Shown: positions 26,082 through 63,246 of the stretch, piece by piece
How positions within the stretch are numbered: the stretch's first letter is position 1
Layout of the letters: each line of letters opens with the position of its first letter
NCBI GenBank assembly: GCA_913057685.1
Contig: CAJXOA010000002.1
Span: forward strand, 62,001 to 126,000
Length of the DNA: 64,000 nt
Direction of reading: 5' to 3'
Origin: an uncultured Trueperaceae bacterium
GTDB taxonomy: Bacteria > Deinococcota > Deinococci > Deinococcales > Trueperaceae
Made by a program: the position numbers and the translations under genes
The notes under the pieces: model-generated
What the model was told of the DNA's origin: nothing
What the model saw: only the letters and a program-made list of their open reading frames with translations
Database searches by the model: none

Positions 26082-26109
26082 TGGGGGCCGGTGGGGGGCC
26101 GACCCGCGG

Positions 26110-42332: not shown

Positions 42333-42341
42333 CGCGTCCGC

Positions 42342-42377: not shown

Positions 42378-42383
42378 GTCCGG

Positions 42384-42404
42384 CCGGCGGGGCGCGCCCG
42401 CCGG
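42384..42404. terminator. Convergent terminator after yjbQ and the S9 peptidase
   Basis: CCGGCGGG (42384-42391) pairs with CCCGCCGG (42397-42404) around GCGCG. It touches the end of the peptidase gene (stop at 42408). There is no U tract. Confidence 0.55.
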
Positions 42405-42407
42405 GGG

Positions 42408-44450: not shown

Positions 44451-44466
44451 GGGTCCTCCTCGGGCG

Positions 44467-45189: not shown

Positions 45190-45190
45190 G

Positions 45191-46662: not shown

Positions 46663-46682
46663 GCCGCGCGTCGCTCGCGGCG

Positions 46683-47744: not shown

Positions 47745-47787
47745 GCCTGCCTCCCGTCGCCGGCGTCGTGCGCGCCCGGTGCGACCA

Positions 47788-49011
47788 TCAGAAGAAGTCC
47801 TTGAGGAGCGTCCGCAACCGCCGGAGGGCGGCGGGCGCTTCGCCCCCCCCGCGCGCGGGCGCGGGGGGAGCGGCGTGCTGCGTGGCGTGCCGGACGAGGC
47901 CGACGGCGGTCGCGTGCGTCGGGGCGGACACGACGTCGGTGAGGCCCGACACGCCCTGCGGTCCGGCGATGCGGACCGGCAGGCGGAAGCGTTCCGCGGC
48001 GAGCGGCTCCGCGCCCGCGAGGCGGCTCCCGCCGCCCGTCAGCACGACGTGCCCGGCGTTCAGTTCGAGCGCCCCGAGGTGGGTTTCGACCTCGCGTTTG
48101 GCGAGGTCGAAGATCTCCATCATGCGGGGTTTGATGACCTGCGCCAGCTCGAACGTCGAGAGGCTGGCGGTGTAGCCGGGGTTGGCGACCTCCAGGACGA
48201 CGTCGCGGTCGGCGAGCTCGGGTTGCGCGACGCCGTGCAGTTGCTTGACGCGTTCCGCTTCGTCGGGCGGGATGCGAAGCAGCTGCGCGATGTCCTGCGT
48301 GACGTGGTCGCCGCCGACCGGCAGCACCGCGCCGTGCGCGAGGACGCCGCGCCGCACGACGGCGACGTCGGTCGTGCCGCCGCCGACGTCGATCACCAGG
48401 GTCGTGACGTCCTCGTCGGCGTCCCCGAGGACCGCGAGGCTGGAGGCGAGCGACTGGACGACGAGCCCGTCGACCGCGACGCCGGCGTCCTCCACCGCCC
48501 GGCGTAGGTTGGCGAGGGGCCCGCGCTGGCCGGCGACGACGTGCACGTCGACCTCCAGCCGGACGCCGCTCATGCCGACCGGGTCCTTGATGCCGTCGTT
48601 GCCGTCGACGACGTACTCCTGCGGGATGACGTGCAGCAGCTCGACGTCGCCCTCCATGGGGACCGCGCGGGCGTTGTCGATGGTGCGTTCCAGGTCGGCG
48701 CGGGTGACCTCCTGCCCGCGGCGGATGGCGGCCATGCCGTGGCTCGTGAACGACGCCAGGTGGGGCCCGCCGACCCCCAACCAGACCGAGGCGACGTCGA
48801 CGCCGGCGACGCGTTCGGCGGCGTCGATCGAGGCGCGGATCGAGCGGACCGTCCGCTCGAGGTTCGCCACGACCCCCTTGCGCAGGCCGTCGCTGGCGAC
48901 GGTCCCCTCGCCGATCACGTCGAGGACGCCGTCGTTCGCGAGTTCGCCGATCACCGTCGTCACCTTCGTCGTCCCGACGTCCAGACCGACGAGGATGCGT
49001 TCGTCACTCAT
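47788..49011 (-). CDS. ftsA: Cell division protein FtsA
   Basis: A 407-residue actin-like membrane tether for FtsZ. The ATPase core has LVGLDVGTTKVTTVIGEL at residues 7-24, the 1C subdomain (IRASIDAAERVAGVDVASVWLGVGG), TTLVIDVGGGTTDVAVVRRG near 205 and GHVVLTGGGSRLAGAEPLA near 337. The C-terminal RLRTLLKDFF is the amphipathic membrane-targeting helix. Its start overlaps ftsQ by 8 nt, giving translational coupling, and ftsZ follows after 43 nt. Confidence 0.97.
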   Translation of the reverse strand: MSDERILVGLDVGTTKVTTVIGELANDGVLDVIGEGTVASDGLRKGVVANLERTVRSIRASIDAAERVAGVDVASVWLGVGGPHLASFTSHGMAAIRRGQEVTRADLERTIDNARAVPMEGDVELLHVIPQEYVVDGNDGIKDPVGMSGVRLEVDVHVVAGQRGPLANLRRAVEDAGVAVDGLVVQSLASSLAVLGDADEDVTTLVIDVGGGTTDVAVVRRGVLAHGAVLPVGGDHVTQDIAQLLRIPPDEAERVKQLHGVAQPELADRDVVLEVANPGYTASLSTFELAQVIKPRMMEIFDLAKREVETHLGALELNAGHVVLTGGGSRLAGAEPLAAERFRLPVRIAGPQGVSGLTDVVSAPTHATAVGLVRHATQHAAPPAPARGGGEAPAALRRLRTLLKDFF

Positions 49012-49642
49012 CCGCCACGCTCACTCCCCACGGGTAGATCGCGACCCGTCCCGACCCGGCGGCCCGCACCGCCGCCCACTCGCGCCGGAGGGCCGCGAGG
49101 TCGGGGGTGCGGACGTGCAGATCGGCCAGGGCGATCGTAAAGCCCATTGGCGCGTACTCTACCACCTTCGGTTCCTCGTCCCGCAGGAGGCGGAGGAGGG
49201 CGAACGCCTCCTCCCGGCGGGACGGCCCCCACCCCCGCACGACCGGCAGCGCCGCCCGCACGGCCGGCCCGACGTCCGGGAGGACCGTCCCGTCCTCCGC
49301 CCACACGACCGCGTCCGCGCCGGTCCCCGCCCGCGCGAACGGCGTGCGTTCCTCGACGGTGATGCGCACGGCGTCCGGCCACCGCCGCTCGACGTGCGCC
49401 GCGGCGACCCACGGGTGCGCCACCAGGTCGTCCACCCGCTGGGCGGTGATCCACAACAGCGGGTCGCCGTGCGCGACGCGCGCGAGCTCCGCGACGCGGG
49501 CGGGCGCCAGGTGGTCGGCGCCCGCCACCTCGATGCGGTCGATGCGGGGCGCCACCCGCGTCCCGGCGAGGAGCGCCACCACCAGCGCCGTGGCGAGGAT
49601 CCACCGCCGGCCCCGCCGGCCGGTGGGCGTCAGCGGCCCCAC
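49004..49642 (-). CDS. ftsQ: Cell division protein FtsQ/DivIB
   Basis: A 212-residue bitopic membrane protein of the divisome. A short basic cytoplasmic tail (TPTGRRGRR) is followed by one helix (WILATALVVALLAGT). The POTRA domain is IDRIEVAGADHLAPARVAEL...GDPLLWITAQRVDDLVAHPWVAAAHVERRWPDAVRITVEERTPFA. The beta domain after it is small. The start is taken as GTG 49642, which overlaps the murB stop by 13 nt. It connects peptidoglycan synthase FtsW/FtsI to the ring in other bacteria. Confidence 0.85.
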   Translation of the reverse strand: MGPLTPTGRRGRRWILATALVVALLAGTRVAPRIDRIEVAGADHLAPARVAELARVAHGDPLLWITAQRVDDLVAHPWVAAAHVERRWPDAVRITVEERTPFARAGTGADAVVWAEDGTVLPDVGPAVRAALPVVRGWGPSRREEAFALLRLLRDEEPKVVEYAPMGFTIALADLHVRTPDLAALRREWAAVRAAGSGRVAIYPWGVSVADE

Positions 49643-50469
49643 CGGCGCCACTCCACCTCGAGGGGCACCTCGACGCGCCGCTGGATCTCGGCGAGGAGCG
49701 CGTCGACGTCGGCGGCGGTGGCGTGCCCCAGGTTCACGATGAAGTTCGCGTGGTCGGGGGACACCATCGCGTCCCCCACCCGCACGCCCTTCAGGCCGGC
49801 GGCGTCGATCAGCCGGCCGGCGCTGTCGCCCGGCGGGTTCGTGAAGGCGCACCCGGCGCTCTTCGCCTTGGGTTGTCCGGCGCGGGCGGCGTCGACCGGC
49901 GCGAGGGCGGCCGCGACCCGCTCGGGGGTGGACGGCGTGAGGCGCAGGCGCGCCCGCAGCAGGACCGCGCCCTCGGGGAGGTGGGCGGTGCGGTAGCCGA
50001 AGCGCAGGGCGTCGGCGGGGAGGCGGACGACCTCCCCCTCCACGAACGCCTCGACCTCGACGAGGACGTCGGCGATCTCCCCGTAGCGCGTGCCGGCGTT
50101 CATCGCGATCGCGCCGCCCAACGCCGCGGGGATCCCCAGGAGGCCCTCGAGGCCGGACAGGCCCGCCTCCTTCGCGCGGCGCACGAGGCCGGGCAGCGGC
50201 GTCGCGGCCCCCAGCCACACGTCGGCGTCGCTCCCGAACGTCCGACCGTCGTCGAAGCCCCGCCCGAGGCGCACGACGCGCTCGGCGACGCCGTCGTCGG
50301 CGACGAGGAGGTTCGACCCCGCGCCGAGCACGCGGAACGGCTCCCGCGTCGCTTCGCGGACGCCGGCGACGTCGTCGACGTGCCAGATCTCCGCGGGGCC
50401 CCCCACGCGGAGGGTCACGAAGTCCGCGAGGGGGCGGACCTCCACCCGCGCGGCGGACGTCGCGCTCAC
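49630..50469 (-). CDS. murB: UDP-N-acetylenolpyruvoylglucosamine reductase
   Basis: A 279-residue FAD enzyme that reduces enolpyruvyl-UDP-GlcNAc to UDP-MurNAc with NADPH. The FAD motif is FRVLGAGSNLLVADDGV near residue 45, followed by GLEGLLGIPAALGGAIAMNAG, FGYRTA and the catalytic-site phrase SAGCAFTNPPGDSAGRLIDAAGLKG. In E. coli the proton donor at that place is Ser (AGSFFKNP); here a Cys occupies it. The start GTG 50469 overlaps murC (GTGA). Type I/II loops are reduced, as in short MurB proteins. Confidence 0.93.
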   Translation of the reverse strand: MSATSAARVEVRPLADFVTLRVGGPAEIWHVDDVAGVREATREPFRVLGAGSNLLVADDGVAERVVRLGRGFDDGRTFGSDADVWLGAATPLPGLVRRAKEAGLSGLEGLLGIPAALGGAIAMNAGTRYGEIADVLVEVEAFVEGEVVRLPADALRFGYRTAHLPEGAVLLRARLRLTPSTPERVAAALAPVDAARAGQPKAKSAGCAFTNPPGDSAGRLIDAAGLKGVRVGDAMVSPDHANFIVNLGHATAADVDALLAEIQRRVEVPLEVEWRRWGR

Positions 50470-51845
50470 GCCGGCCCCTCGCCGGCGAGGCCGGCGGCGA
50501 CCCGCCACACGTCGCCCGCACCGAGGGTGAGGACCAGGTCGCCGTCGCGCAGGTCGCCCGCCAGGTAGGCGATCGCGCCGTCGACGTCCGCACCGCGCGC
50601 GGGCGTCCCGGCGGCGACGATCCGCTCGACGATCGCGTCGCGCGTCACGCCGGGGATTCGGGCCTCCCCGGCGCCGTAGACGTCGAGGACGACGACCTCG
50701 TCGGCGGCGGCGGCGGCGTCCGCCAACGCCGGCCAGTGCCGGGCGGTGCGCACCCACCGGTGCGGCTGCAGCACCGCCCGGACGCGGCGGCCGGTCGCGC
50801 GCGCCGCCGTCAACGTCGCAGCGACCTCGGTCGGGTGGTGGGCGTAGTCGTCGACGATGCGCGCGCCGCGCACGTCGCCCCACCGTTGCCAGCGGCGGCC
50901 GACCCCGCGGAACGTCGCGAGGGCCGCCGCCCCGTCGGCGAGCGGGACGCCGGCCCGGTGGGCGGCGGCGAGGGCGGCGGCGGCGTTGAGGGCGTTGAAG
51001 CGACCGGGGACGTGCAGCGCGACGTCCACCGCCGCGTCGGGCCCCACCAGGCGGAAGTGGGCGCCGTCGCCGTCGAGGGTGAGGTCGCGCACCCGGTAGT
51101 CGGCGTCCGCCGTTTCGCCGTACGCGACGGCGTCGGGGTGGTCGGCGACGACGGCGGCGAGGCCCGGCCAGTCGGCGCACCACACGAGGGTCCGCGCGGC
51201 GTGCGCGAAGCGGCGGGTGGCGGCCTCCAGGTCGGCGTAGGCGGCGTGGTAGGTGCGGCGTTCGCCGTGATCGCCGGCGACGTGGTCGTCCTCGAGGTTC
51301 GTCACGACCGCCACCTGGGCGCGCAGGTCGGCGAAGCCCGGGTCGGACTCGTCGACCTCCGCGACGAGGTGCGGTCCGCGCCCGAAGCGCATGACGCCGT
51401 TCAGGGTCGGCAGGGTCGCGCCCAGTTGGACGCTGGGGTCGCGGCCGGCGTGCAGCAGGATCGTCGCCAGCATGCCGCTCGTGGTGCTCTTGCCGTGCGT
51501 CCCCGTCACGCCCAACGCGGCGTGCGCGTCGAACAACTGCGCGAGGACGTCCATGCGGCGGAGGACGGGAAGGCCGCGCGCCTCCGCGGCGCGCCGCTCC
51601 GGCGCGTCCGCCGCGACGGCGGCGCTGACCACCAGCGCGTCGACCGGGCCGAGGTCCGCGTCGCCGTCCAGGTGGGCGGGGTCGTGCCCCACGACCGCGG
51701 GGATGCCGTCGGCGCGGAGCGCGTCGAGGTCGTCCCCGTCCGCCAGGTCGCAGCCGGACACGCGGTCGCCGGCGGCGTGGTGGTGGCGGGCGAGGCCGCC
51801 CATGCTGACCCCACCGATCCCCATGAAGTGCAGGTGGCGACTCAC
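50466..51845 (-). CDS. murC: UDP-N-acetylmuramate--L-alanine ligase
   Basis: A 459-residue Mur ligase adding L-Ala to UDP-MurNAc. The N-terminal Rossmann part is HLHFMGIGGVSMGGLARHHHAAG. The ATP loop is LGVTGTHGKSTTSGML near residue 110, the central domain has TNLEDDHVAGDHG, FNALNAAAAL and DDYAHHPTEVAATL, and the C-terminal domain has LQPHRWVRT. Start GTG 51845 overlaps the stop of a 17-codon ORF rather than the murG stop, 63 nt upstream. It overlaps murB by GTGA. Confidence 0.96.
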   Translation of the reverse strand: MSRHLHFMGIGGVSMGGLARHHHAAGDRVSGCDLADGDDLDALRADGIPAVVGHDPAHLDGDADLGPVDALVVSAAVAADAPERRAAEARGLPVLRRMDVLAQLFDAHAALGVTGTHGKSTTSGMLATILLHAGRDPSVQLGATLPTLNGVMRFGRGPHLVAEVDESDPGFADLRAQVAVVTNLEDDHVAGDHGERRTYHAAYADLEAATRRFAHAARTLVWCADWPGLAAVVADHPDAVAYGETADADYRVRDLTLDGDGAHFRLVGPDAAVDVALHVPGRFNALNAAAALAAAHRAGVPLADGAAALATFRGVGRRWQRWGDVRGARIVDDYAHHPTEVAATLTAARATGRRVRAVLQPHRWVRTARHWPALADAAAAADEVVVLDVYGAGEARIPGVTRDAIVERIVAAGTPARGADVDGAIAYLAGDLRDGDLVLTLGAGDVWRVAAGLAGEGPA

Positions 51846-51911
51846 GCGGTCCTCGCGGGGATGGGGAGGCGGGGGGCGTCGGGGGCGGTCGGCATGACGG
51901 CCCGCATGCTA
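51842..51911 (-). promoter_or_regulatory. Internal promoter and 17-codon leader ORF before murC
   Basis: TAGCAT (51906-51911, minus strand; its TAG is the murG stop codon) is a -10-like hexamer. Ten nt later ATG 51895 opens MPTAPDAPRLPIPARTA, whose TGA overlaps the murC GTG (GTGA). An internal promoter here would give murC-murB-ftsQAZ extra expression. The ORF could be a leader or simply a chance frame. Confidence 0.35.
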
Positions 51912-52997
51912 CCGCGCCCCTCGGGCCGGTCCCGCGTCGCGCTGGGCGACGGAGCGGACGAGGGCGTGCAAACCCTCCGCCGCGCCGGCGGGGCTGCGGT
52001 CCGCCTGGCGGGCGGCGGCCGCGGCGCGGGCGCCGGGGTCGAGCAACGTCCGCCACGCGTCGCGCAGGCCGGCGTCGTCGGTCTCCTCGACGGCGGCGCC
52101 CGCGCCCGCGGCGGCGACGGCGGCGGCGTTCGCGCGTTGGTGGTCGTCCGCAGCGGTCGGGAGCGGTACCGCGACGACCGGCACGCCGTGGAACGCCGCC
52201 TCCGACAGGGTCGAGACGCCGGCGCGGGTGATGGCGAGGTCGGCGGCGGCCCAGGCGTCGGGCGCGTCGACGAAGCCCGCGACGGCGTACCCGCCGAGGT
52301 CCCGGGTGGCGGCGCGGACGTCCGCCTCCCACCGCGGGCCGCTCGCGTGCAGCACGACGCCGCGCACCTCCGCAGGGAGGGTGCGGGCGACGCGGGGCAC
52401 GAGCGCGTTGAGGGCGGCGCTCCCCTGCGAGCCGCCCATCACCAGCGTGACCACCCCGTCGCCGGGGAGGCCCAACCGTCGGCGGGCGGCCGCCCGGTCG
52501 CGGCGCTCCTCGCGGACGGGGAACGCCGCCTCCACCAGCCGCACGTCGCGGGGGAGGTGCGCGCGGGCGCCTCCGTGGACGGCGGCGACGACGGCGGCGC
52601 GGCGCGCGAACCAGCGGGTGACGCGCCCGGGGACGGCGTTCCCCTCGTGCAGGACGAGGGGGGTGCCGGTGAGGGTCGCCGCGACGCAGCCGGGGAACGA
52701 CGCGAACCCACCGAACCCCACGACGACGTCCGGCGCGAGCCGGCGGACGGCGCGCACCGCGCCGGCCAGGCCGGCGGCGGCGCGAAGCGCCTCGCGCGGG
52801 TCGGGGCGGCCGCGGTCCCACTTGCCGGCCGACACGCCGGTGAAGGGGACGTCCGCCTCCGCCGCGAGGCGCGCCTCGAGGCCGCCCGTTCGGCCGAGCA
52901 GGTGCACGTCGTCGCCCGCCGCGCGGGCGGCGGCCGCCAACGCCAGGGCGGGGTAGACGTGCCCGCCGGTCCCGCCCGCCGCCAGCAGGACCTTCAC
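51909..52997 (-). CDS. murG: Lipid II synthase MurG (UDP-GlcNAc transferase)
   Basis: A 362-residue peripheral membrane GT28 enzyme converting lipid I to lipid II. The N-terminal loop AAGGTGGHVYPALALA is at residues 6-21, followed by PDVVVGFGGFASFPGCVAA, LVLHEGNAVPGRV and the C-terminal donor site LVMGGSQGSAALN and ITRAGVSTLSEAAFHGVPVVAVPLP. The start is GTG 52997 overlapping ftsW (GTGA). The stop TAG coincides with a possible internal promoter for murC. Confidence 0.96.
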   Translation of the reverse strand: MKVLLAAGGTGGHVYPALALAAAARAAGDDVHLLGRTGGLEARLAAEADVPFTGVSAGKWDRGRPDPREALRAAAGLAGAVRAVRRLAPDVVVGFGGFASFPGCVAATLTGTPLVLHEGNAVPGRVTRWFARRAAVVAAVHGGARAHLPRDVRLVEAAFPVREERRDRAAARRRLGLPGDGVVTLVMGGSQGSAALNALVPRVARTLPAEVRGVVLHASGPRWEADVRAATRDLGGYAVAGFVDAPDAWAAADLAITRAGVSTLSEAAFHGVPVVAVPLPTAADDHQRANAAAVAAAGAGAAVEETDDAGLRDAWRTLLDPGARAAAAARQADRSPAGAAEGLHALVRSVAQRDAGPARGAR

Positions 52998-54070
52998 GGC
53001 GCCTCCCCGTCGCCCGTCCCGCGCAGCGCGCCGGCGCGGACCGCTTCGCGGTGGGCGGCGTGCAGGAACCCGAAGGCGATCGCGACCGACACGAGGCTGT
53101 TCAGGCCGTAACTGACGAAGGGGAGGGGGATGCCGGTGACGGGCAGGAGGCCCGACGCGACCAACAGGTTCAGGGCGGCCTGCCCGGTGACGTACGCCGT
53201 GGCGCCGGCCGCCAGCAGCGCGCCGGGGCCGGCCTGCGCCGCGGCGATCCGCAGGCCGCGGCTGGCGATCAGGAGGTACGTCGCGATCAACGTCGCCATG
53301 CCCACCAACCCCAGGGTGCGCCCCAGCGCCACGGCGATCATGTCGGTCTCCGCTTCGGGGACCCGCAGGATGCCGCCGGGACCGATCCCGATCCACCCGC
53401 CCGCCTGCAGCGCCTCGCGCGCTCGGAACGCCTGGTAGCTGGTGCTGCGCGTCGCCTCCTGCGCGCCCCACAGGTCCTGGAAGCCGGTGATGCGTTCGGC
53501 GAGGTAGGAGAACTGCGACAGGTACGGCCCACCGATCACGATCGCGACGAGGGCGGCGGCGGTCGTGATCGACAGCAGCCGCGTCATCGTCGTCCCGGCG
53601 GCCAGCATCACGGCGAAGGCGAGGGCGAACGTGAAGAGGGCGGTCGAGACGTCCGGTTGCGCGATGATCGCGCCGGCCGCCACCCCGACGACCAACATCG
53701 GGCGCCAGATCTGCCAGTCGCCCAGGTGGTTCCAGAAGAACGCGGCGAGGTAGGCGATGACGGCGACCTTCATGAGTTCCGAGGGTTGGACGGAGACGCC
53801 GCCCACCAGCAGCCACCGTTTCGCGTCGCTGCCCGCCGGCGCGACCCCGATGAACAACACCGCCACGAGGAGCGCCAACGTCCCGGCGTACAGCCAGGGG
53901 CTGGCGCGCACCACCCGCGCGACGGGAACGTAGGCGACCGCGACGCTCACGACGAGCGCCGCGGCGACGCGCAGGGCGTGCTCCCCGGCGAGGTCGGGGG
54001 CGGCGGCGGCCACCCCGAGGATCCCGAGGGCCCCCAGGACGACCTGGGCGGTCAGGAGCAGCCGGTCCAC
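52994..54070 (-). CDS. ftsW: Cell division/peptidoglycan glycosyltransferase FtsW
   Basis: A 358-residue SEDS membrane protein with about ten helices that polymerises lipid II together with its class B PBP. Diagnostic stretches are GSDAKRWLLVGGVSVQPSELMKVAVIAYLAAFF, AQPDVSTALFTFALAFAVML, EARE-like FRAREALQAGGWIGIGPGG and LPVTGIPLPFVSYGLNSLVSVAIAFGFL. Start GTG 54070 lies within the end of murD (19-nt overlap). Encoded in the division cluster beside ftsI-type PBP, so FtsW rather than RodA. Confidence 0.93.
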   Translation of the reverse strand: MDRLLLTAQVVLGALGILGVAAAAPDLAGEHALRVAAALVVSVAVAYVPVARVVRASPWLYAGTLALLVAVLFIGVAPAGSDAKRWLLVGGVSVQPSELMKVAVIAYLAAFFWNHLGDWQIWRPMLVVGVAAGAIIAQPDVSTALFTFALAFAVMLAAGTTMTRLLSITTAAALVAIVIGGPYLSQFSYLAERITGFQDLWGAQEATRSTSYQAFRAREALQAGGWIGIGPGGILRVPEAETDMIAVALGRTLGLVGMATLIATYLLIASRGLRIAAAQAGPGALLAAGATAYVTGQAALNLLVASGLLPVTGIPLPFVSYGLNSLVSVAIAFGFLHAAHREAVRAGALRGTGDGEAP

Positions 54071-55437
54071 GCGGCCTCCGCGAGCAGGGCGTCGACGGCG
54101 GCGCGGAACGCGTCGCCGCGCGCCCGGTAGTTCGGGAACTGATCGAAGGACGACGCGAGCGGCGCCAGCAGGACCGTCCCGCCGCCGCGCGCGCGAAGGT
54201 GGTCGGCGCCGACCCGGACCGCCTCCGCCATCGCGGCGTCGCCGTCGGTCGCCGCGACCCGGTGGGTGGCGCACACGCCGTCGAACGCCTCCGCCAGGGC
54301 GGGCCCCGCCTCCCCGACCGCGACGAGCAGGGCGACCTTCTCCGCGGCGAGGGGCGCGAGGGCGGTGGGGTCGGCGCCCTTGTCGCGGCCCCCCACGATC
54401 CACGCGACCGGGGCGGGGGCGGCCTCGAGGGCGGCGTGCACCGCCAGCTCGCGGGTGGCGATCGAGTCGTCGACGAACGCGACGCCGCACGCCTCCGCGA
54501 CCCGTTCGTGCCGGCCGGGGAGGCCGCGCAGGTGGGGGAGGTGCGCCGCGAGGGCGGCGGGGTCGGCGCCGGCCGCCTCCGCCGCGGCGAGCGCCGCGAG
54601 GGCGTTCGCGCGGGCGGGCCGGCCGGGCACCGCGAGGGTGTCCGGCCCGAGGTCGCGCGTCCCGAGCCACAGGTGCGCCCCGCCGCGCGGGCCGGGCGCC
54701 CGCCGCGCGTACGCGCCTGCGGCCCCGGCGGTGGATACGGTCCGGACCTCCGCGCCGGCCGCCGCGACCGGCGCGCCCCAGTCCGCTTGGTAGGGGTCGT
54801 CGGCGTTCAGGATCGCGACGTCGCCCGGCCCCAGGTGGGTCAGGAGGCGCCGCTTGACGGCGTGGTACGTCGCGAGGTCGCCGTGCCGGTCCAGGTGGTC
54901 GCGCCCGAGGACGGTGACGACCGCCACGCGGGGGTGCAGGGTCGGGGAGCGCTCCAGCTGGAACGAGGAGATCTCCGTCACCAGCCACCGGTCGGGCGCG
55001 GCGACCGCGGCGAGTGCCGGGTCGAGGTTCCCACCCGCGACGGCGTCCACGCCGGCGGCGCGGAGGAGGTCGTCGGTCCAGCGCGTGACGGTGCCCTTCC
55101 CGGCCGTCCCGGTGATGCCGATCAGGGGGGCGTCGACGGTGCGGGCGACCCACTCGATCTCGCCGATCGTCTCCACCCCCCGCGCGCGGAGGGTCACGAG
55201 ATCGGGGTGGTCCCACGGCACGCCGGGGGCGGCGATGCAGATCGCGAAGGCGTCGTCCGCCGCGGCGGCGACGTCGACCGCCTCCCCCCAGCCTTCGCGG
55301 CGGGCGACCGCCGCGTCGGGGGAGGTGGGGTCGCGGTCGGTCCAGCGGACGGTCCACCCCTGCCGCGCGGCGAGGCGGCCGGCGGCGAGGCCGCTGCGAC
55401 CGAGGCCGTACACCAGCAGCGGCGCGCCGGCGGTCAC
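54052..55437 (-). CDS. murD: UDP-N-acetylmuramoylalanine--D-glutamate ligase
   Basis: A 461-residue Mur ligase adding D-Glu. The N-terminal LLVYGLGRSGLAAGRLAARQGW binds the uridine part. The ATP loop is LIGITGTAGKGTVTRW near residue 112, followed by ISSFQLERSPTLHPRVAVVTVLGRDHLDRHG, the ARANALAALAAAEAAG segment, LPGRHERVAEACGVAFVDDSIATRE and VAWIVGGRDKGAD. The K-G-T in the P-loop is the MurD form. Start GTG 55437 overlaps mraY (GTGA). Confidence 0.95.
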   Translation of the reverse strand: MTAGAPLLVYGLGRSGLAAGRLAARQGWTVRWTDRDPTSPDAAVARREGWGEAVDVAAAADDAFAICIAAPGVPWDHPDLVTLRARGVETIGEIEWVARTVDAPLIGITGTAGKGTVTRWTDDLLRAAGVDAVAGGNLDPALAAVAAPDRWLVTEISSFQLERSPTLHPRVAVVTVLGRDHLDRHGDLATYHAVKRRLLTHLGPGDVAILNADDPYQADWGAPVAAAGAEVRTVSTAGAAGAYARRAPGPRGGAHLWLGTRDLGPDTLAVPGRPARANALAALAAAEAAGADPAALAAHLPHLRGLPGRHERVAEACGVAFVDDSIATRELAVHAALEAAPAPVAWIVGGRDKGADPTALAPLAAEKVALLVAVGEAGPALAEAFDGVCATHRVAATDGDAAMAEAVRVGADHLRARGGGTVLLAPLASSFDQFPNYRARGDAFRAAVDALLAEAAWTGCS

Positions 55438-56375
55438 GCCGGTCCCCTCGTGGCGACCGCCAGCGCGACGGCGACGGCGGTCACCAGCACGAAGCGGGTC
55501 ACGACCCGCGGTTCCGGCCACCCGAGTAGTTCGAAGTGGTGGTGGAGGGGACTCATGCGCAGGACCCGGCGGCCGGTGAGGCGGACGGCGGCGACCTGCA
55601 CGACGACCGACAGGACCTCCGCGACCGGGACGGCGGCGAGGAGGGGGAGGCGCCAGACGTCGCCGTGCACGATCGCCAGGCCGGCGATCGCCGCACCGAG
55701 CGCTTCGGAGCCGACGCCGCCCATGAAGACGCGCGCGGGGTGGGCGTTGAACCACGCGAAGCCGAGGAGCGCCCCGAGCAACGCCGCGGCGAACGGGTCG
55801 TGCAGGAACGCCAGCAGGATGACCGCCGCGACGCCGGCGGCGAGGCCGTCGAGGCCGTCGGTGAAGTTCAGGGCGTTGACGCTGCCGACGACGACGAAGG
55901 CGAAGCCGGCGACGTCGAGGGCGGGGAGGCCGACCATCGCGTGGCCCTGCGCGACCGCCCACACCCCGAAGGCGAGGCCGACGCCGGTCTGCGCGAGGAT
56001 GCGCCAGCGCGCCAGCACGCCGGTGGCGGCGTCCTCCCCGGGGCGCGCCTTGCGGGCGAGCGCGCCGAGGTCGTCCCACGCCCCGAGCGCTGCGGAGGCG
56101 GCGACGAGGGCGAGGAGTGCGGCGGCGGTCGCGAGGTCCGCGCCGCCGGGCCGGACGGGCCCCACCCCGAGGGTGGCGACGAGGCCCGCGGCGAGGGCGA
56201 CGGCGAGGAAGGCGACGCCCCCCATCGTGGGGGTGCCGGCCTTCGCGAGGTGCGCGTCGGGTCCGTCCTGTCGCACCGCCTTCCCCCACCCGCGGGTGCG
56301 GGCGAGGGTCAGGAACCCGCGGGTCGCGACGCCGCTCAGCAGGGCGCCCGCGACGATCCAGACGGGCGTCGTCAC
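55434..56375 (-). CDS. mraY: Phospho-N-acetylmuramoyl-pentapeptide-transferase
   Basis: A 313-residue membrane enzyme, about ten helices, that moves phospho-MurNAc-pentapeptide to undecaprenyl phosphate (lipid I). Motifs: KAGTPTMGGVAFLAVALAAG near residue 46 with the Lys/Thr/Pro pattern, GAWDDLGALARKA, the Mg-binding NALNFTDGLDGLAAGVAAV and the cytoplasmic MSPLHHHFELLGWPEPRVV loop. It is shorter than E. coli MraY (360), with the first helices condensed. Start GTG 56375 overlaps murF by GTGA. Confidence 0.95.
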   Translation of the reverse strand: MTTPVWIVAGALLSGVATRGFLTLARTRGWGKAVRQDGPDAHLAKAGTPTMGGVAFLAVALAAGLVATLGVGPVRPGGADLATAAALLALVAASAALGAWDDLGALARKARPGEDAATGVLARWRILAQTGVGLAFGVWAVAQGHAMVGLPALDVAGFAFVVVGSVNALNFTDGLDGLAAGVAAVILLAFLHDPFAAALLGALLGFAWFNAHPARVFMGGVGSEALGAAIAGLAIVHGDVWRLPLLAAVPVAEVLSVVVQVAAVRLTGRRVLRMSPLHHHFELLGWPEPRVVTRFVLVTAVAVALAVATRGPA

Positions 56376-57766
56376 GGCGCCTCGCCGAGGAGTGCGGCGA
56401 CGACCCGCTCGAAGCGTCCACTGCGCGACGCCTTGACGAGGACGGTGCCCTCGCGCGGCAACGTGCGCGCGAGGTGCAGGAGGTCGTCGAACGTCCCGCA
56501 CGTCGCACCGGGGTGGCCGGCGCGGACGGCGTCGGCGTGGGCGCCGGCGTACGCGACGCGTTCGAGGCCGCGGGCGGCCTCCGCCATCGCGCGGTGGGCG
56601 GCGTCCGCCTCCGCGCCGAGCTCCGCCATGTCGCCGAGCAGCGCGACGCGGGGGCCGGGGGCGGCGTGCAGCAGCTCGAGCGCCTGCGCCATCGAGGTGG
56701 GGTTGGCGTTGTAGGTGTCGTCGATCACGAGGCGCGCCCCGTCGCGCCGAACCTGGAGGCGGCCGTCCTCGAAGCGCGCACGTTCGAGGCGGGCGGCGGC
56801 GGCGCGCGGGTCCTGGCCCAGCCGCTCCGCGACGGCGAGGGTGCCGACGGCGCTCTCCGCGAGGCCCCGCCCGACGCCGGGCAGCGCGACCTCCAGGGCG
56901 TCGCCGCCGCCCGGTGGGGCGACGTGCAGGGTGGGCGTCAGGGCGGGCCCGGTGACGGTCCCGCGCCAGCGCACGCCGTCCGCGGGGGCCGCGCCCGCGG
57001 CGTCCTCCGCCCCGTCGGCGAGGGCGTACGGCTCGGTGCGGAGGCGGAGGTCGGCGTCGACCTGCCGCCAGGCGCCGAGCGCCGCGAGGCCGCGGGCGAC
57101 GCCGTGCAGGAGCCGGCCCTTCTCCCGCGCGACGGTGGCGACGTCCCCGAAGCCGTCGAGGTGGGCGGGACCGATGGCGGTGAGGAGGCCGACGTCGGGC
57201 CGGACGAGGTGCACGATGCGGTCCATTTCGCCGACGTGGTCGATCCCCATCTCCAGCACGAGCGGGTGGGGGAGGTCCTCGCTCCAGGCGCGCAGGAGGC
57301 GTCCGGCGAGGGCGTGGGGGGTGTTGAGGTTGCCGTCGCCCGCGGCGGCGTCGAGGCCGGCGGCGAGGAGGGCGCGAGCGGTGGTCTTGCCGGCGGAGCC
57401 GGTGACGCCGACGACCGAACTGCGGAGGCGTGCGCGGGCCCAGCGCCCGAGCGCCAGCAGGGCGGCGGCGGGATCGTCGACGACGAGCCCGTGGGGGTGC
57501 GGGCGGTCGGACACGACGAGGGCGGCGCCGGCGGCGAGGGCGGCGTCGGCGTGGTCGAGGCCGTGGTGGGTGGCGCCGGGGAGCGCGAAGAAGGCGTCGC
57601 CGGGTCGGATGCGGCCGTCGTGGTGCGCGGCGCCGGTGACGGCGGGGAGCGCATCCGGATCGGTGCCGGGGGCGGGCGCCGCGCCGAGCAGCCGGGCGAG
57701 CGTCCGGGCGGGGAGGCGGCGGGGGGCCGAGGGCGGGATGGGGGAGGGCGCGGCGTCGGGCGTCAC
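56372..57766 (-). CDS. murF: UDP-MurNAc-tripeptide--D-Ala-D-Ala ligase
   Basis: A 464-residue Mur ligase. The MurF-specific N-terminal domain is VTGAAHHDGRIRPGDAFFALPGATHHGLDHADAAL. The P-loop is VVGVTGSAGKTTARAL near residue 120, followed by LVLEMGIDHVGEMDRIVHLVRPDVGLLTAIGPAHLDGFG and the third domain VIDDTYNANPTSMAQALELL with LGDMAELGA. Start GTG 57766, 53 nt after ftsI, has no close overlap, unlike its neighbours. murE, which usually sits between ftsI and murF, is absent here. Confidence 0.95.
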   Translation of the reverse strand: MTPDAAPSPIPPSAPRRLPARTLARLLGAAPAPGTDPDALPAVTGAAHHDGRIRPGDAFFALPGATHHGLDHADAALAAGAALVVSDRPHPHGLVVDDPAAALLALGRWARARLRSSVVGVTGSAGKTTARALLAAGLDAAAGDGNLNTPHALAGRLLRAWSEDLPHPLVLEMGIDHVGEMDRIVHLVRPDVGLLTAIGPAHLDGFGDVATVAREKGRLLHGVARGLAALGAWRQVDADLRLRTEPYALADGAEDAAGAAPADGVRWRGTVTGPALTPTLHVAPPGGGDALEVALPGVGRGLAESAVGTLAVAERLGQDPRAAAARLERARFEDGRLQVRRDGARLVIDDTYNANPTSMAQALELLHAAPGPRVALLGDMAELGAEADAAHRAMAEAARGLERVAYAGAHADAVRAGHPGATCGTFDDLLHLARTLPREGTVLVKASRSGRFERVVAALLGEAP

Positions 57767-57819
57767 GTCGCCCTCACGTTACCCGCTGGGGGGCGTTCGG
57801 CGGCGCGGGGGGTGGGGGG

Positions 57820-59265
57820 TCACCGGGCGGCCTCGGCGAGCGGGGCGGGGGCGGGGGCGACGCCCCAGTGCGCGACGACTTCGCTGCCGATCGCGCGGAA
57901 CAGCGGGGCGGCGGTGTAGGTGCTGCTGGCGCCGGCGTCGGGCTTCTGCAGCATCACGACCATGACGACCTCCGGGTCGTCGGCGGGGAACATGCCGGCG
58001 AACGTCAGCGAGTACCAGCCGTCGGGGTAGGTGCCCTGCGCGGGGTCGTAGATGTCGGCGGTTCCGGTTTTGCCGGCGACGGCGACGCCGGGAATGGCGG
58101 TGTCGCGGAGGCCGGAGCGTTCGACGGTGTAGCGCAGCATGCTGCGCACCTCGCGCGCGACGTCGGTGGACAACACCCGGTGGGGGTCGGGCGTCGCCTC
58201 GTCCTCGACGAGGCGGGGTGGGACGTACACGCCGTCGGTCGCGAGGATCGCGTACGCCGCCGCCAGCTGCAGGGGGGTGGTGGCGACGCTCTGGCCGATC
58301 GTGACGCTCGCCTGGTCCTGCGGGACCCAGTTCTGCCAGGGGTTGAGGGTGCCGGGGCGGGTGTAGGCGGAGCGCAGCGGTAGCGACTGGCCGAAGCCGT
58401 AGTGGCGCAGCCAGGCGTGCAGCTCCTGCGGTTCGAAGCGTTCGGTGAGGTTCAGCATGGCGGTGTTGCTCGAGTAGCGCAGCACGTCGCGGAGCGGCAG
58501 GCGGTCGGGGTGGGTCGCGACGTCGCGGAACGTCTTGCTGCCCACCCGAAGGGTGGGGGGCGCGTCGATCGGCTCGTCGAGGGTCGCGCGGTCGCTCTGC
58601 AGGAGGGCGGCGACGACGAACGGCTTCATGACCGACCCGGGTTCGTACTGGCGCAGGAACGCCTGGTTGCCGATCGCTTCGCGGGAGGCGCCCTGGAAGG
58701 CGTTCGGGTCGTACGTGGGGTAGCTGGCGGTGGCGAGGATGCGGCCGGTGTCCGCCTCGAGCATGACGACCGAGCCGTTCTCCGCGCCGGAGTCGTCGAT
58801 GCTGGCCTGCAGGTGGCGTTCGGCGGCGGACTGCAGGACCGGGTCGAGCGTCAACGTCACGTCGCGGCCGGCGGCGAGGCGCGCGTCGAGGGCGTACTCG
58901 ATCCCTTCGAGGCCGTAGCGACCGTCGGGCTGCAGGCGACCGGAGAAGCCGACGACCTGCGCGGCGAGGGAGCCCTGGGGGTAGCGGCGGTGGGCGACGT
59001 CGCCGTCGGCGAGGATGGTGCCGTCGGCGGCGAGGATGCGGCCGCGTTCGGGCGCCTCGGCGGGGGCGCTGGGCCAGATCGGGGCGCCGTGCTGCTGCAT
59101 CGCGAAGCCGCTCAACGCCGCGAGGAGCGGGAGGGCGATCAGGACGAGGAGGAGGCCGCGGCGGGCGAGCCGCAGTTCGCTCGGGCCGGTCGCGCGCGGC
59201 GCCGAGGTGCGCGTCGCACCGGAGGGCGCGAGGGGGCGCCGGGGGTCGGAGGCGTTCAACGCCAC
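57820..59265 (-). CDS. ftsI: Division-specific class B penicillin-binding protein
   Basis: A 481-residue D,D-transpeptidase that cross-links septal peptidoglycan. A polar tail and one transmembrane helix (LLLVLIALPLLAALSGFAM, about 38-56) precede a short pedestal domain with RGRILAADGTILADGD and GLEGIEYALDARLAAGRDVTLTLD. Active-site motifs are SVMK (S211, K214), SSN (265-267) and KTGTA (399-403). There are no PASTA domains, and it is about 100 residues shorter than E. coli FtsI, mostly in the pedestal. Overlaps ftsL by 10 nt. Confidence 0.93.
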   Translation of the reverse strand: MALNASDPRRPLAPSGATRTSAPRATGPSELRLARRGLLLVLIALPLLAALSGFAMQQHGAPIWPSAPAEAPERGRILAADGTILADGDVAHRRYPQGSLAAQVVGFSGRLQPDGRYGLEGIEYALDARLAAGRDVTLTLDPVLQSAAERHLQASIDDSGAENGSVVMLEADTGRILATASYPTYDPNAFQGASREAIGNQAFLRQYEPGSVMKPFVVAALLQSDRATLDEPIDAPPTLRVGSKTFRDVATHPDRLPLRDVLRYSSNTAMLNLTERFEPQELHAWLRHYGFGQSLPLRSAYTRPGTLNPWQNWVPQDQASVTIGQSVATTPLQLAAAYAILATDGVYVPPRLVEDEATPDPHRVLSTDVAREVRSMLRYTVERSGLRDTAIPGVAVAGKTGTADIYDPAQGTYPDGWYSLTFAGMFPADDPEVVMVVMLQKPDAGASSTYTAAPLFRAIGSEVVAHWGVAPAPAPLAEAAR

Positions 59266-59594
59266 GTCGTCGTCACCTCCAGGGTGGATGCCGCGTCGGG
59301 TGCGGGCGGAAGGGTGGGGGCGGGGAGCGGCTGGACGTGCCGGACGACCTCGACGTCGGGGGCCGGCACCATGCCGCGGGCCTGCGCCCAGCGGGCGACG
59401 GCGAGCGGACCTTCGACCGCGGCGGCGGCGGCGCGCGCCTCGACGGCGGCGAGGCGGGCGGCGGCGAGGTCGTCGCGGAGCGCCGCTTCGGTGCGGACGA
59501 GCCGCTGGTTGTGCACCCCGAGCGCGGCGAGGGCGAGCAGGAGCGTCAGGTACAGCCCCACGAGGGTGGTGGGGGTCACGAGGCGGCGGCTCAT
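59256..59594 (-). CDS. ftsL: Cell division protein FtsL-like
   Basis: A 112-residue bitopic protein: short basic N-terminus (MSRRLVTP), one helix (TTLVGLYLTLLLALAALGVH) and an Ala-rich heptad segment (QRLVRTEAALRDDLAAARLAAVEARAAAAAVEG) that can form the coiled coil with FtsB. It then has WAQARGMVPAPDVEVVRHV, the usual FtsL endpoint. Family sequence conservation is low, so the name rests on size, topology and position between rsmH and ftsI. ATG 59594 overlaps rsmH (ATGA). Confidence 0.8.
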   Translation of the reverse strand: MSRRLVTPTTLVGLYLTLLLALAALGVHNQRLVRTEAALRDDLAAARLAAVEARAAAAAVEGPLAVARWAQARGMVPAPDVEVVRHVQPLPAPTLPPAPDAASTLEVTTTWR

Positions 59595-60577
59595 GCGGGC
59601 TCCTTGCGGGCGACGCGCAGTTTCGCGGCGCGCGCCCGGGGGTTGCGGTCGATCTCCGCCTCGGAGGCGGTCTCGGGTTTCTTCGTGAGGGGCGTCAGGC
59701 GCGCGGCGTCGCGGAAGAAGCGCTTGACGATGCGGTCCTCGAGGCTGTGGTACGTGAGCACGACCAGGCGGCCGTCGGGGGCGAGGAGGCGGGCGGCGCC
59801 CTCGAGGCCCTCCTGCAGGGCGGCGAGTTCGTCGTTGACGTAGATGCGGAGCGCTTGGAAGGTCCGGCGGGCGGGGTGGTCGCGGCGGGGGCCGCCGGGG
59901 TACGCCGCGGCGACGACGTCCGCGAGGCGTGCGGTGGTGCGGATGGGTTCGTCGCCGCGGGCGCGTACGATCGCGGCGGCGAGGCGGCGGCTGTGGCGCT
60001 CCTCGCCGTAGCGGTACAGGATCGCGGCGAGTTCCGCCTCCGAGGCGTCGGCGACGACGTCGGCGGCGCTCCGTCCCGCGCCGCTCATGCGCATGTCGAG
60101 GGGGCCGTCGTGGCGGAAGGCGAAGCCGCGGTCGGCTTCGTCGAGCTGCATGCTGGAGACGCCCAGGTCCATCAGGACGCCGTGGGGGGCGGGGACCCCC
60201 GCGCTGGCGACGAGCGCCTCGACGTCGCGGAAGTCGCCGGGGACGAACACCAGGGCGTCGTCGGCGATCGCTGCGGCGCGGGTGGCGGCGTCGGGGTCGC
60301 GGTCGACGGCGACGACCTTCGCGCCGCGCGCGAGCAGGGCGCGGGTGTGCCCGCCGGCTCCGAAGGTGGCGTCGACGTACCAGCGGCCCGGCTGGACGTC
60401 CAGCGTTTCGAGGCACCGCTCGAGCATCACGGGGACGTGCGGGGCGTCGGGTGCGACGCCGGGGCCGGACGCGCCGCCGGCGCCCGCGGGGTCGGTCGGG
60501 CCGGACCGGCCGGAGGGGCCGGCGCCGCCGGCGCCGTGGGCGGCGGCGGCGATGGGGAAGGGGACGGGGGCGATCAT
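59591..60577 (-). CDS. rsmH: 16S rRNA (cytosine-1402-N4)-methyltransferase
   Basis: A 328-residue SAM-dependent methyltransferase (formerly MraW). The core starts HVPVMLERCLETLDVQPGRWYVDATFGAGGHTRALLARG near residue 47 with the SAM loop. VLMDLGVSSMQLDEADRGFAFRHDGPLDMRM, RYGEERHSRRLAAAIV, RRTFQALRIYVNDEL and LTYHSLEDRIVKRFFRD follow; all are family signatures. Residues 1-45 form a Gly/Pro/Ala-rich extension without family counterpart. ATG 60577 overlaps mraZ (ATGA). Confidence 0.96.
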   Translation of the reverse strand: MIAPVPFPIAAAAHGAGGAGPSGRSGPTDPAGAGGASGPGVAPDAPHVPVMLERCLETLDVQPGRWYVDATFGAGGHTRALLARGAKVVAVDRDPDAATRAAAIADDALVFVPGDFRDVEALVASAGVPAPHGVLMDLGVSSMQLDEADRGFAFRHDGPLDMRMSGAGRSAADVVADASEAELAAILYRYGEERHSRRLAAAIVRARGDEPIRTTARLADVVAAAYPGGPRRDHPARRTFQALRIYVNDELAALQEGLEGAARLLAPDGRLVVLTYHSLEDRIVKRFFRDAARLTPLTKKPETASEAEIDRNPRARAAKLRVARKEPA

Positions 60578-61059
60578 CCGATCAACTCCGACAGGAGGCC
60601 GGGGGCGGGCGGTTCGACCTGGACGTCGTCGAGCAGGTCGTGCCAGCGGCCCTCGTTCCAGAGTTCGAGGCGGTTGGGGGCGCCGGTCACGATGACCGGG
60701 CCCTCGTCGGCGTCCAGCTTCGCGAACGCCCGCAGGGGGGTGGGGAGGCTGATGCGGCCGGTGCCGTCGAGCTTGGCCTTCGCGGCGCCGGAGTAGAAGA
60801 AGCGCACGAACGCGCGGGCGTCGGCGTCGGTGAGCGGCAGCTCCTCGAGGCGCGCTTCGATGCGGCTCCAGGCGCCGACGGGGAAGACGTAGAGGCAGCC
60901 CTCCATGCCGCGGGTGACGACCATGCCGTCCGCGACGAATTCGCGGAAGGCGGGGGGGACGATGACGCGTCCCTTGTCGTCCACCGAATACTGGTACTCG
61001 CCGAAGGGCAATGGCTCGCTCCCGCGTCCGGAGTCTTCGGGGGTGGCACGACCCGCCAC
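60574..61059 (-). CDS. mraZ: Transcriptional regulator MraZ
   Basis: A 161-residue regulator made of two AbrB-like SpoVT swapped-hairpin halves: FGEYQYSVDDKGRVIVPPAFREFV near residues 19-42 and GAAKAKLDGTGRISLPTPLRAFAKLD near 91-116. Both contain the DxKGRxxxP-type DNA-binding loop. In E. coli MraZ represses its own operon through direct repeats near the promoter. Here three GTGGGA repeats lie just upstream. Start GTG 61059 has GGGGAGGA. It is slightly longer than usual at the N-terminus (about 15 residues). Confidence 0.96.
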   Translation of the reverse strand: MAGRATPEDSGRGSEPLPFGEYQYSVDDKGRVIVPPAFREFVADGMVVTRGMEGCLYVFPVGAWSRIEARLEELPLTDADARAFVRFFYSGAAKAKLDGTGRISLPTPLRAFAKLDADEGPVIVTGAPNRLELWNEGRWHDLLDDVQVEPPAPGLLSELIG

Positions 61060-61080
61060 GCTTCCTCCCCGAGATGCCCC

Positions 61081-61121
61081 ATACTAGCACGAATCTCCCA
61101 CGTTCTCCCACCGTTTCCCAC
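61081..61121 (-). promoter_or_regulatory. mraZ promoter with three MraZ boxes
   Basis: On the minus strand the -10 is TAGTAT (61081-61086). Upstream lie three direct repeats GTGGGA (61116-61121, 61106-61111, 61096-61101) at exactly 10-bp period, occupying the -35 region. This matches the known MraZ operator, direct TGGG repeats one helical turn apart. There is no -35 consensus. The expected effect is repression of the dcw operon by MraZ. Confidence 0.85.
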
Positions 61122-61392
61122 GAATGGGGCGAATTCCACACCGGTGCGCGGATTCCTCCCACGGGCACGGCCCTGCGGCCCCTTCGCTCGGCCCGACCCC
61201 CGGCCCGCACCCTGGGTGGGGCGGGCCGGGCGAGGGGACGCGCCGGCCCCGCGCAGCGCGCGCGGGGCGACGACCGAGGCATGCGGTGGGGACCGGTGGG
61301 GGGCGGTGGGGGAGCGGGGTGGGGAGCGATGTAGGGGAGCGGTGTTGGGAGCGGTGTGGGGGGCGGTGTAGGGACCGCGTCGAGGACGGGCG
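61122..61392. repeat. Intergenic region upstream of the mraZ operator
   Basis: This 271-nt stretch between the mraZ operator and the end of the STAND-like gene has a 9-bp hairpin GCCCCGCGC/GCGCGGGGC (61246-61268). It is the likely terminator for the STAND-like gene. It also has a degenerate G-rich tandem repeat (61285-61374) built from units like GGGAGCGGTGT of about 12-14 bp. No coding sequence or further promoter was found. Confidence 0.5.
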
Positions 61393-63246
61393 TCAGCCCA
61401 GGTGGTGTTCGCGAGCGATGCGGTCGAGGAGTTCCGCCGCCATCGCGTGCCCCGACGCCGCGACCGCGTCGCGCATGGCGCGGAACGGACGCCGGAGGCT
61501 CCGGCGCTCGACGCCGTCGACCGACCCGAGGTCGAGATCGAGGGTGTGGACCTCGCGGATCACGTCGGCCGGTGCGCCGTCCGACGCCGCGACGCTCAAC
61601 GCGGCGATCCGCAGGCCCGCCACGCTGTAGGCGTCGTTCAGGGGCTTCAGGGCGGCGATCGCCTCGCGGTACGCGGCGGCCGCCCCAGCGCGGTCGCCGC
61701 GCCCGCGAAGGACGTGCCCGAGGTTTCCGGTGCAGGCGGCCGCGACCCACGGGAGGTCGTGCGCCTCCGCCAGGTCCCGGCCGCGCCGTAGGCGGGCTTC
61801 GGCGGCGTCGAGGTCCGCGAGGCTCGCCTCGACCTGCGCGAGGTTCAGGTGCACCCGCGCCTCGGCGGTGACGTCCACCCCCTCCGCGTGGATCGCGAGC
61901 GCCGCCTCGAACGACGCCTTCGCCTCCGTCCACCGCCCGGCGATCGTCTCCAGGCTCCCGCGAGTCGCGAACGCCGCCGCCTGCGCGCCGGGCGATAGGT
62001 CGTTCCCGTGCGCGTCGAGCAGCACAGCGACGTAGCGCAGGAGGGTCGCCGCCCGCCCGATCCGCCGGTAGGCCGGCCAGGTCCGTCCCGCCACGAACAG
62101 CGCCCGCGCCGGATCGTGCTCGACGTCGTGATCGAGGGCCGCCTCGACGTCGTCCAGGCGCTCCAGCATCGCGACCGACGCCGCGCCGGTCGGTCCGTCC
62201 CGACCGGGGCCGGCGAGCGCCGCGACGGTCCGCCGCACGAACGCCGCGTGGCGGTCGGCGAGGGCCGCGGCGTCGGGGTCGCCGGACGCGTCGGCGCGTA
62301 GCGCCGCCGCCGTCTCGGCGGACACCGCGAAGCGGTCGTCGTCGGTCGTCCGCACCAGCCCCCGCCGCCGGGCCTCGAGGAGGCGCCCCCGGACCGCGTC
62401 CACCGGGACGTCCGCGAGCGCCGCGACGTCGTCGGCGGTGCCGCCCGCACGGAGGTGCGCGAGCGCCCGCACGACCGTGCGCGCCTCGGGCGCGAGCGCC
62501 GCCCATTCCGGAACGACCGCGGCGGCGTCGGGTCCGAACGCCGCCCGCACGAAGGCGGTAGGGCCGCCGCCCATCGCGGGCATCGGCGTCCCGTCGCGCG
62601 CCACCCGCGCACCGAGCTGCACGAGCGCACCGGGGTGCCCGCCGACCTCGCGCGCCAGCCGCACCCACGTGGCGCGCTCCGACGCATGGGGTGCGGTGGA
62701 GCGGCCTGCCGCCGTGGCGGCGGCGTGCAGGATCCGAAGGGTCGGGGCGTCGTCGATCCGTTCGCTCGCCTCCGCCCCCAGGGCGGCCACCGTCAGGCCC
62801 CCGAGGGGGATCGTCACCTCGTCCGGGACGCTTAGCGGCGCCGTCCCGGTGACGACCCAGCGAGGACCGTCGGCGTGCGGCGGGGCGGCGAGCGCCGCCC
62901 GCACCGCCGCGCGCGACGTCTCGTCGCCGGGAACGTCGTCCAGCACCACGATGCGGGCAGGCCGGTCGCCGTCCGGCGTGGCGGCGCGCGCGACCTCCGC
63001 TGCGATGCGGTCGACCGGCACCCCGCGCAGGGGGACGCACGCCACCGCACCGTCCCCGCCGTCGGGGGTGGCGGCGAGGGTGCGCTGGACGCACGTCGAC
63101 GTCCCGACGCCGTGGACGCCGACGACGCTCACGACCCGCGCCCCGTCGTCGAACGCGTGCGCGAGGCGCTCCTCGGTGCGGAGCCGCCCGACGAACCGGT
63201 TCGCGTCGCCCGCCTCCGTCGCGGCCGCCCGGAGCGGCGCCCGCAA
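61393..63246 (-). CDS. STAND-like ATPase-domain protein with TPR repeats
   Basis: 617 residues with the layout of the signalling ATPases associated with AfsR/LuxR-type regulators but without a DNA-binding domain. The NOD-like part (about 18-330) begins NRFVGRLRTEERLAHAF, then the degenerate P-loop VVGVHGVGTSTCVQ in which Thr49 replaces the Walker A lysine. Walker B RIVVLDDVPGDE, a sensor-like RWVVTGTAPLSVPDE and GGHPGALVQLGARV follow. The C-terminal half (about 370-590) consists of helical TPR-like repeats, e.g. AEARVHLNLAQVEASLADLDAAEARL and GNLGHVLRGRGDRAGAAAAYREAI. The start is TTG 63246 without a ribosome-binding site, so the N-terminus is uncertain. Function unknown; a protein-interaction sensor is likely. 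Confidence 0.65.
   Translation of the reverse strand: MRAPLRAAATEAGDANRFVGRLRTEERLAHAFDDGARVVSVVGVHGVGTSTCVQRTLAATPDGGDGAVACVPLRGVPVDRIAAEVARAATPDGDRPARIVVLDDVPGDETSRAAVRAALAAPPHADGPRWVVTGTAPLSVPDEVTIPLGGLTVAALGAEASERIDDAPTLRILHAAATAAGRSTAPHASERATWVRLAREVGGHPGALVQLGARVARDGTPMPAMGGGPTAFVRAAFGPDAAAVVPEWAALAPEARTVVRALAHLRAGGTADDVAALADVPVDAVRGRLLEARRRGLVRTTDDDRFAVSAETAAALRADASGDPDAAALADRHAAFVRRTVAALAGPGRDGPTGAASVAMLERLDDVEAALDHDVEHDPARALFVAGRTWPAYRRIGRAATLLRYVAVLLDAHGNDLSPGAQAAAFATRGSLETIAGRWTEAKASFEAALAIHAEGVDVTAEARVHLNLAQVEASLADLDAAEARLRRGRDLAEAHDLPWVAAACTGNLGHVLRGRGDRAGAAAAYREAIAALKPLNDAYSVAGLRIAALSVAASDGAPADVIREVHTLDLDLGSVDGVERRSLRRPFRAMRDAVAASGHAMAAELLDRIAREHHLG

Follow-up and report, generated by a model that had tools for sequence, protein, structure and literature searches.

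Phased GTGGGA repeats running into an extended -10 promoter: a probable MraZ operator in front of mraZ in an uncultured Trueperaceae bacterium

Introduction

The regulator MraZ is conserved across a wide range of bacteria, and little is known outside a few models of how this ring-shaped protein reads DNA repeats or of what it regulates. Its operator consists of TGGG direct repeats. In Escherichia coli K-12, three GTGGG(A/G) direct repeats with a 10-bp period (GTGGGAAATTGTGGGGCAAAGTGGGA) lie upstream of b0081; they start at distances of 44, 34 and 24 bp from its ATG and are downstream of TTGACA and a putative -10 element. MraZ of this species is described as a repressor in the excerpted texts of PMC8475190 and PMC7761207. 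According to the latter excerpt, Burkholderia cenocepacia MraZ bound a repeat-bearing PmraBc fragment in EMSA; the repeats of this promoter likewise follow a 10-bp period (7-nt units plus 3-nt spacers), and four of them cover the point where transcription starts and lie downstream of the -10 element, a place given "as in E. coli" (PMC7761207). Mollicutes have a different box sequence, AAAGTG[T/G] (cited in the available part of PMC8475190), and cryo-EM entries exist for Mycoplasma genitalium MraZ on a multi-box promoter (9sz7, titled "MraZ in complex with 4 box promoter", and 9r4j, titled "in complex with its promoter").

Here we describe the DNA in front of mraZ in the window, a stretch of 64,000 nucleotides from an uncultured Trueperaceae bacterium (CAJXOA010000002.1 of GCA_913057685.1, positions 62,001-126,000; coordinates below count from the window start). 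The window array resembles that of E. coli in having three GTGGG direct repeats with a 10-bp period but differs in placement: its boxes lie upstream of an extended -10 element and run into it, and a fourth box stands further upstream, whereas the E. coli and Burkholderia boxes sit in the leader, downstream of the -10. The initial annotation proposed that the same autoregulation as in E. coli operates here. This interpretation is largely supported by the sequence comparisons below, and the kind of switch, an autoregulatory MraZ operator, is a known one; the placement relative to the -10, however, departs from E. coli, and the layout here seems to be a variant that related bacteria share. Among the matches listed from the open-licence literature that we searched, no paper dealt with an mraZ promoter of Deinococcota or with an MraZ box set apart upstream in helical phase. 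Judged by those matches, three features seem to be new: the merging of boxes and extended -10, the whole-turn distal box and the single-target pattern across the order.

Data and methods

Upstream DNA was compared across 69 mraZ loci from 30 genera (59 loci and 10 added loci); distal-box counts were taken over the 59 and start-codon pair counts over 55. Genome searches covered 61 genomes (the window's own included), 111 genomes of the order and 5 genomes of the genus. An array was called chained when at least two GTGG boxes led at 10- or 11-bp steps into [GA]TGnTAnnnT. The order-wide search used a looser triple, GTGGGN{5,6}GTGGGN{5,6}GTGGNA, with the reversed pattern as control.

Results and discussion

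The promoter region and the genes behind it comprise the following features, all on the minus strand and listed from upstream to downstream:

61157-61162, minus strand: putative distal box, GTGGGA, preceding box 1 by 41 bp or about four helical turns
61122-61141, minus strand: GTGTGGAATTCGCCCCATTC, adjoining box 1
61116-61121, minus strand: core MraZ box 1, GTGGGA, a putative box from the pattern search
61106-61111, minus strand: core MraZ box 2, GTGGGA, a putative box overlapping the place of a -35 element
61096-61101, minus strand: core MraZ box 3, GTGGGA, a putative box from the pattern search
61081-61090, minus strand: GTGCTAGTAT, extended -10 element (TGC-TAGTAT), a candidate sigma contact
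61074-61075, minus strand: predicted transcription start, 6-7 nt past the -10 and placed from its position
60574-61059, minus strand: mraZ, first gene of the block, start GTG 61059 or TTG 61011
59591-60577, minus strand: rsmH (mraW), overlapping the mraZ stop
42408-59591, minus strand: remaining same-strand block, possibly co-transcribed

The array upstream of mraZ (GTGGGA-N4-GTGGGA-N4-GTGGGA, GTGGGAAACGGTGGGAGAACGTGGGA, 61096-61121) holds an exact 10-bp period, and so matches an operator of at least three GTGGG/TGGGN repeats in the DNA preceding this gene. Shuffling the window 100 times gives an expectation of 0.00 copies, and the genome of 2,289,026 bases contains one copy (0 for the reversed control pattern). 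The three minus-strand boxes with 4-nt spacers reported in the initial annotation are thus confirmed as the sole genomic copy. Its further statements that they fill the -35 region and that a consensus -35 is missing agree with the overlap of box 2 with the place of a -35 and with a TTGACA/TATAAT scan of 60900-61700 that returned no promoter-like site. Its TAGTAT was also found, at 61081-61086, while the TGC before it and the fourth GTGGGA at 61157-61162 had been overlooked.

Two sequences border the array. GTGTGGAATTCGCCCCATTC is kept, by eye, in G000, G004 and G003 of the genus's five genomes, with a final T in G003 as its sole difference from the other two; it and box 1 make up a short inverted repeat, whose arms read CCCCA/TGGGG in L023 and TTCCCACA/TGTGGGAA in L028. 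Further upstream, between a TPR gene and the mraZ promoter, lies a degenerate G-rich tandem array on the plus strand (61283-61374), with a 12-bp unit, GTGGGGAGCGGT, in 7.6 copies at 61286-61374. By eye, the matching stretch of the close relative G004 holds nothing comparable.

The core array continues in register into the -10 element. The TG of the extended -10 lies at 61088-61089, and the GTG of GTGCTAGTAT starts 11 bp from the start of box 3, at what would be the fourth position of the array. Chained arrays of this kind occur in 51 of the 69 loci (22 of 30 genera), with at least three boxes in 30 loci and at least five in 13, and in 200 shuffles no locus had a chain of even two boxes. The box itself serves as the extended -10 in 30 of the 51 chained loci, where the last array element is GTGGTA, and the base preceding the TG is G in 49 and A in the other two. 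This GTG may stem, at least partly, from an extended -10 preference alone. The strict chain was not found in 18 of the 69 loci, most of which have degenerate boxes by eye, and in one of the 69 (L069) the DNA upstream of mraZ has no recognisable -10. Across 138 boxes, which were selected by their GTG, the unit reads GTGG(G/T)A with A-rich flanks.

These chains bear on whether a GC-rich genome could have produced the repeats by chance. The nearby G-rich array (61283-61374) would fit that explanation, as would three other GTGGGN5GTGGG pairs in the window (26081-26095 on the plus strand, 34377-34391 and 52707-52721 on the minus strand), counted besides the pairs of the mraZ array and of the G-rich repeat. 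Against this stand the shuffled expectation of 0.00, the single genomic copy and the -10-registered chains in 22 of 30 genera; because the array is conserved, chance is refuted and keeps next to no probability.

Alternatively, the G tracts could form a G-quadruplex that tunes mraZ expression, as proposed for the S. aureus leader, rather than a protein operator. The part of PMC11796246 available describes G-quadruplex behaviour of the G-rich region upstream of S. aureus mraZ and G-quadruplex-forming motifs in other species, and the window has three GGG tracts and a GGGG within 45 nt. However, the unit requires its GTG and tolerates a T for the third G (13% of the 138 boxes), 30 of 51 loci have GTGGTA as their -10 element, and the boxes are spaced by helical turns (10/11 and about 42 bp), a regularity that a G-quadruplex would not call for. 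An element of this kind would have four GGG tracts joined by short loops; the array holds three, and the fourth tract in the window stands, by inspection, 16 nt from box 3. We regard a G-quadruplex as very unlikely.

The distal box points to a protein that reads one face of the DNA. A detached GTGGG box 41-43 bp upstream of the core was found in 34 of 59 loci, from 17 genera, against a mean of 0.43 loci and a maximum of 3 in 300 shuffles. We know of no distal box in the MraZ promoter of Mycoplasma genitalium. When distances of 31-32, 41-43 or 52-53 bp are admitted, the box is present in 35 of 37 loci of family f1, 4 of 4 of f5 and 3 of 8 of f4, and in none of the 8 loci of f3 or the 2 of f2; within the genus, one of the five genomes (G001, the source of L028) has no distal box. 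Distal words within 75 bp are in phase in 54 of 64 cases. Only three stand less than 29 bp from the core (at 13, 19 and 22 bp), a count affected by a core definition that absorbs one-turn neighbours. The spacer between distal box and core is hardly conserved (identity 0.30 between genera versus 0.255 shuffled).

When each genus is represented by a single locus, the distances from one GTGGG word to another peak at 10-11, 20, 31, 41-42, 52 and 62-63 bp. Of 131 pairs 14-80 bp apart, multiples within the core being counted too, 103 deviate by no more than 1.5 bp from a multiple of 10.5 (the shuffled fraction is 0.33). We read this phasing as one protein complex on one DNA face, with the distal box as a likely second contact. 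In the window, the stretch from the distal box to the -10 measures 72 bp, which would put these elements at turn positions 0, 4, 5, 6 and 7 of eight. The DNA might hypothetically wrap around the MraZ ring; because box spans differ in length among relatives, a fixed eight-position occupancy of the ring is likewise put forward as a hypothesis only.

Many relatives carry a second pair of boxes at mraZ itself. Of 55 loci, 22 (from 11 genera of four families; e.g., L057, L029 and L059) have two GTGGG words 10/11 bp apart that abut the mraZ start codon, where a Shine-Dalgarno sequence would be expected; counted from this codon, their positions are roughly -18/-8 or -17/-7. The pattern GTGGGN5GTGGGNNATGCC occurs in 9 of 61 genomes, at mraZ in 8 of them (0 for the reversed control). 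The position of this pair is reminiscent of the E. coli boxes before the ATG and of the Burkholderia repeats downstream of the -10, as the latter appear in the excerpt of PMC7761207; the window species has no GTGGG pair at its mraZ start codon. Looping between promoter array and start-codon pair is not claimed because their distances (77-138 bp, or 7.33-13.14 turns) show no fixed phase.

The gene behind the boxes, named mraZ in the initial annotation, is indeed a true mraZ. Its product matches PF02381 in two stretches (E 7e-31, 106 bits), as expected of a protein with two MraZ/AbrB domains, and scores 110.2 against TIGR00242, above the cut-off of 98.35. Aligned with E. coli MraZ over 140 positions, it shows 33% identity. 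An AlphaFold model (mean pLDDT 74.9, with poorly predicted ends) has M. genitalium and M. pneumoniae MraZ as its structure matches at ranks 1-16; fold matches include 9qlg and 1n0e, and the model also matches the M. genitalium chains of 9sz7 and 9r4j. The Pfam, TIGR00242 and structure matches together make the identity firm.

The start of this protein has two candidates. GTG 61059 has an SD-like GGGGAGGAAGC directly before it and lies 15 nt after the predicted transcription start; TTG 61011 aligns with the start codon of relatives and lies about 64 nt after it. Folding of the predicted leader, first codons included, is no better than that of shuffled sequences (z 0.70). Several Trueperaceae leaders (e.g., L031, L033 and L039) share with the window (61060-61070, minus strand) an AGGAGG-like stretch a short way past the -10; far from the aligned mraZ start, it could belong to an upstream ORF or to a longer MraZ. 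Four genomes of family f4 and genus g25 each have two separate MraZ-family genes (G071 C18, G073 C89, G082 C2 and G084 C85/C223), about 12-13 kb apart in G071, G073 and G082 and on different contigs in G084.

The array accompanies mraZ and little else. By P0001, mraZ was found in 59 of 61 genomes, the MraZ family is present in 108 of the 111 genomes of the order, and mraZ occurs in 7 of 14 control genomes. GTGGGN5GTGGGN5GTGGNA is found exactly once per genome in all five genomes of the genus, always upstream of mraZ. Across the order, 87 of 111 genomes have the looser triple, and in 86 of these it lies upstream of mraZ, match and gene positions having been compared by eye; in the exception, G109, it is on a contig end. 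The array is thus conserved with mraZ and not scattered. Strict triples are absent from 24 of the 111 genomes. None of the three mraZ-less genomes (f2, genus g28) has the triple, which says little because mraZ-bearing members of their groups also fail the strict pattern.

The initial annotation had suggested searching the genome for the triple repeat to find further targets. Candidates from the strict triple (5 genomes), the looser triple (the order) and pairs (three genomes) did not exceed reversed controls. The looser triple gave 7 matches away from mraZ versus 12 for the control in the 111 genomes, so that nothing points to a wider regulon under this pattern; GTGGGA pairs gave three off mraZ, all in G003, and the control matches three.

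Since repeats alone name no reader, and binding by the MraZ of this species is itself predicted, the boxes might be read by another transcription factor. This is very unlikely: the triple lies almost only before mraZ, its unit agrees with that of the E. coli mraZ boxes, B. cenocepacia MraZ bound a fragment with such repeats in the EMSA reported in PMC7761207, and M. genitalium MraZ has a structure entry titled as a complex with a four-box promoter (9sz7). Because the identity of MraZ is firm and the order's triple stands almost only before its gene, the array is best interpreted as a site at which MraZ regulates its own gene. The triple is very probably an operator of MraZ, autoregulatory and merged with the promoter, as judged from sequence.

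How such an operator would work can be outlined. MraZ would be an AbrB-fold ring repressor, each subunit reading one GTGGGA on the same helix face one turn apart. The array would occupy the -35 place and continue in register into the extended -10 of a weak promoter that lacks a -35. Since it covers the one and enters the other, MraZ and RNA polymerase would exclude each other sterically in competing for the same bases. The same ring or a second one may contact the distal box, which lies four turns further upstream, and wrapping or bending of the DNA in between may stabilise the complex. As MraZ accumulates, its own promoter and the genes behind it would be shut down.

MraZ might instead be bound at this site and activate, or have a mixed effect. 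Over-expression of M. gallisepticum MraZ was accompanied by raised FtsZ (cited in the available part of PMC8475190), but loss of mraZ in M. genitalium raised mraW and ftsZ (same excerpt), and MraZ is reported to act as a repressor in both M. genitalium and E. coli (PMC8475190; PMC7761207). The placement of the window boxes, over the -35 place and reaching the -10, likewise argues against activation. Boxes in such a position are usual for repression. We consider activation unlikely and expect MraZ to act as a repressor in Deinococcota.

The genes that such a repressor would control form a long same-strand block. As expected of the mraZ family, mraZ is the first gene of a dcw cluster, with rsmH next, and it heads 18 same-strand genes, mostly for division and the cell wall. 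After rsmH come an ORF in the ftsL position (no Pfam match), an FtsI-type PBP (transpeptidase), murF, mraY, murD, ftsW, murG, murC, murB, ftsQ, ftsA, ftsZ, a NUDIX gene, ribF, rlmB and an S9 peptidase. The initial annotation's count of about 18 genes, through rlmB and the peptidase, is reproduced when the NUDIX gene and the ftsL-position ORF are included. The NUDIX gene lies between ftsZ and ribF (46132-46662, minus strand). Within 42000-61130 there is one promoter-like site, weak and on the opposite strand, and there are six rows resembling terminators, against a shuffle mean of 2.8; five of the six are on the coding strand, where they fall at three places. These counts carry little information. 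All 18 genes may belong to one transcript.

Conclusions

For the order as a whole, we advance a broader proposal, tentatively and as less likely than not. In this deinococcotal order, the MraZ operator and the dcw promoter might be one composite element. Phased boxes would stand in for the -35, the extended -10 would itself be the final box, and a detached box placed exactly three to five turns upstream would allow a single ring to bend the DNA or wrap it; in many relatives, the ribosome-binding site of mraZ would be covered by a second operator. The predictions for the order are that MraZ would contend with RNA polymerase at a shared -10/box, that it would have one chromosomal target, and that it would use a distal box set at whole turns. 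Thermus, which is genetically tractable, is suited to testing the composite-operator prediction, and the order offers natural operators of varying box number for structural work on MraZ.
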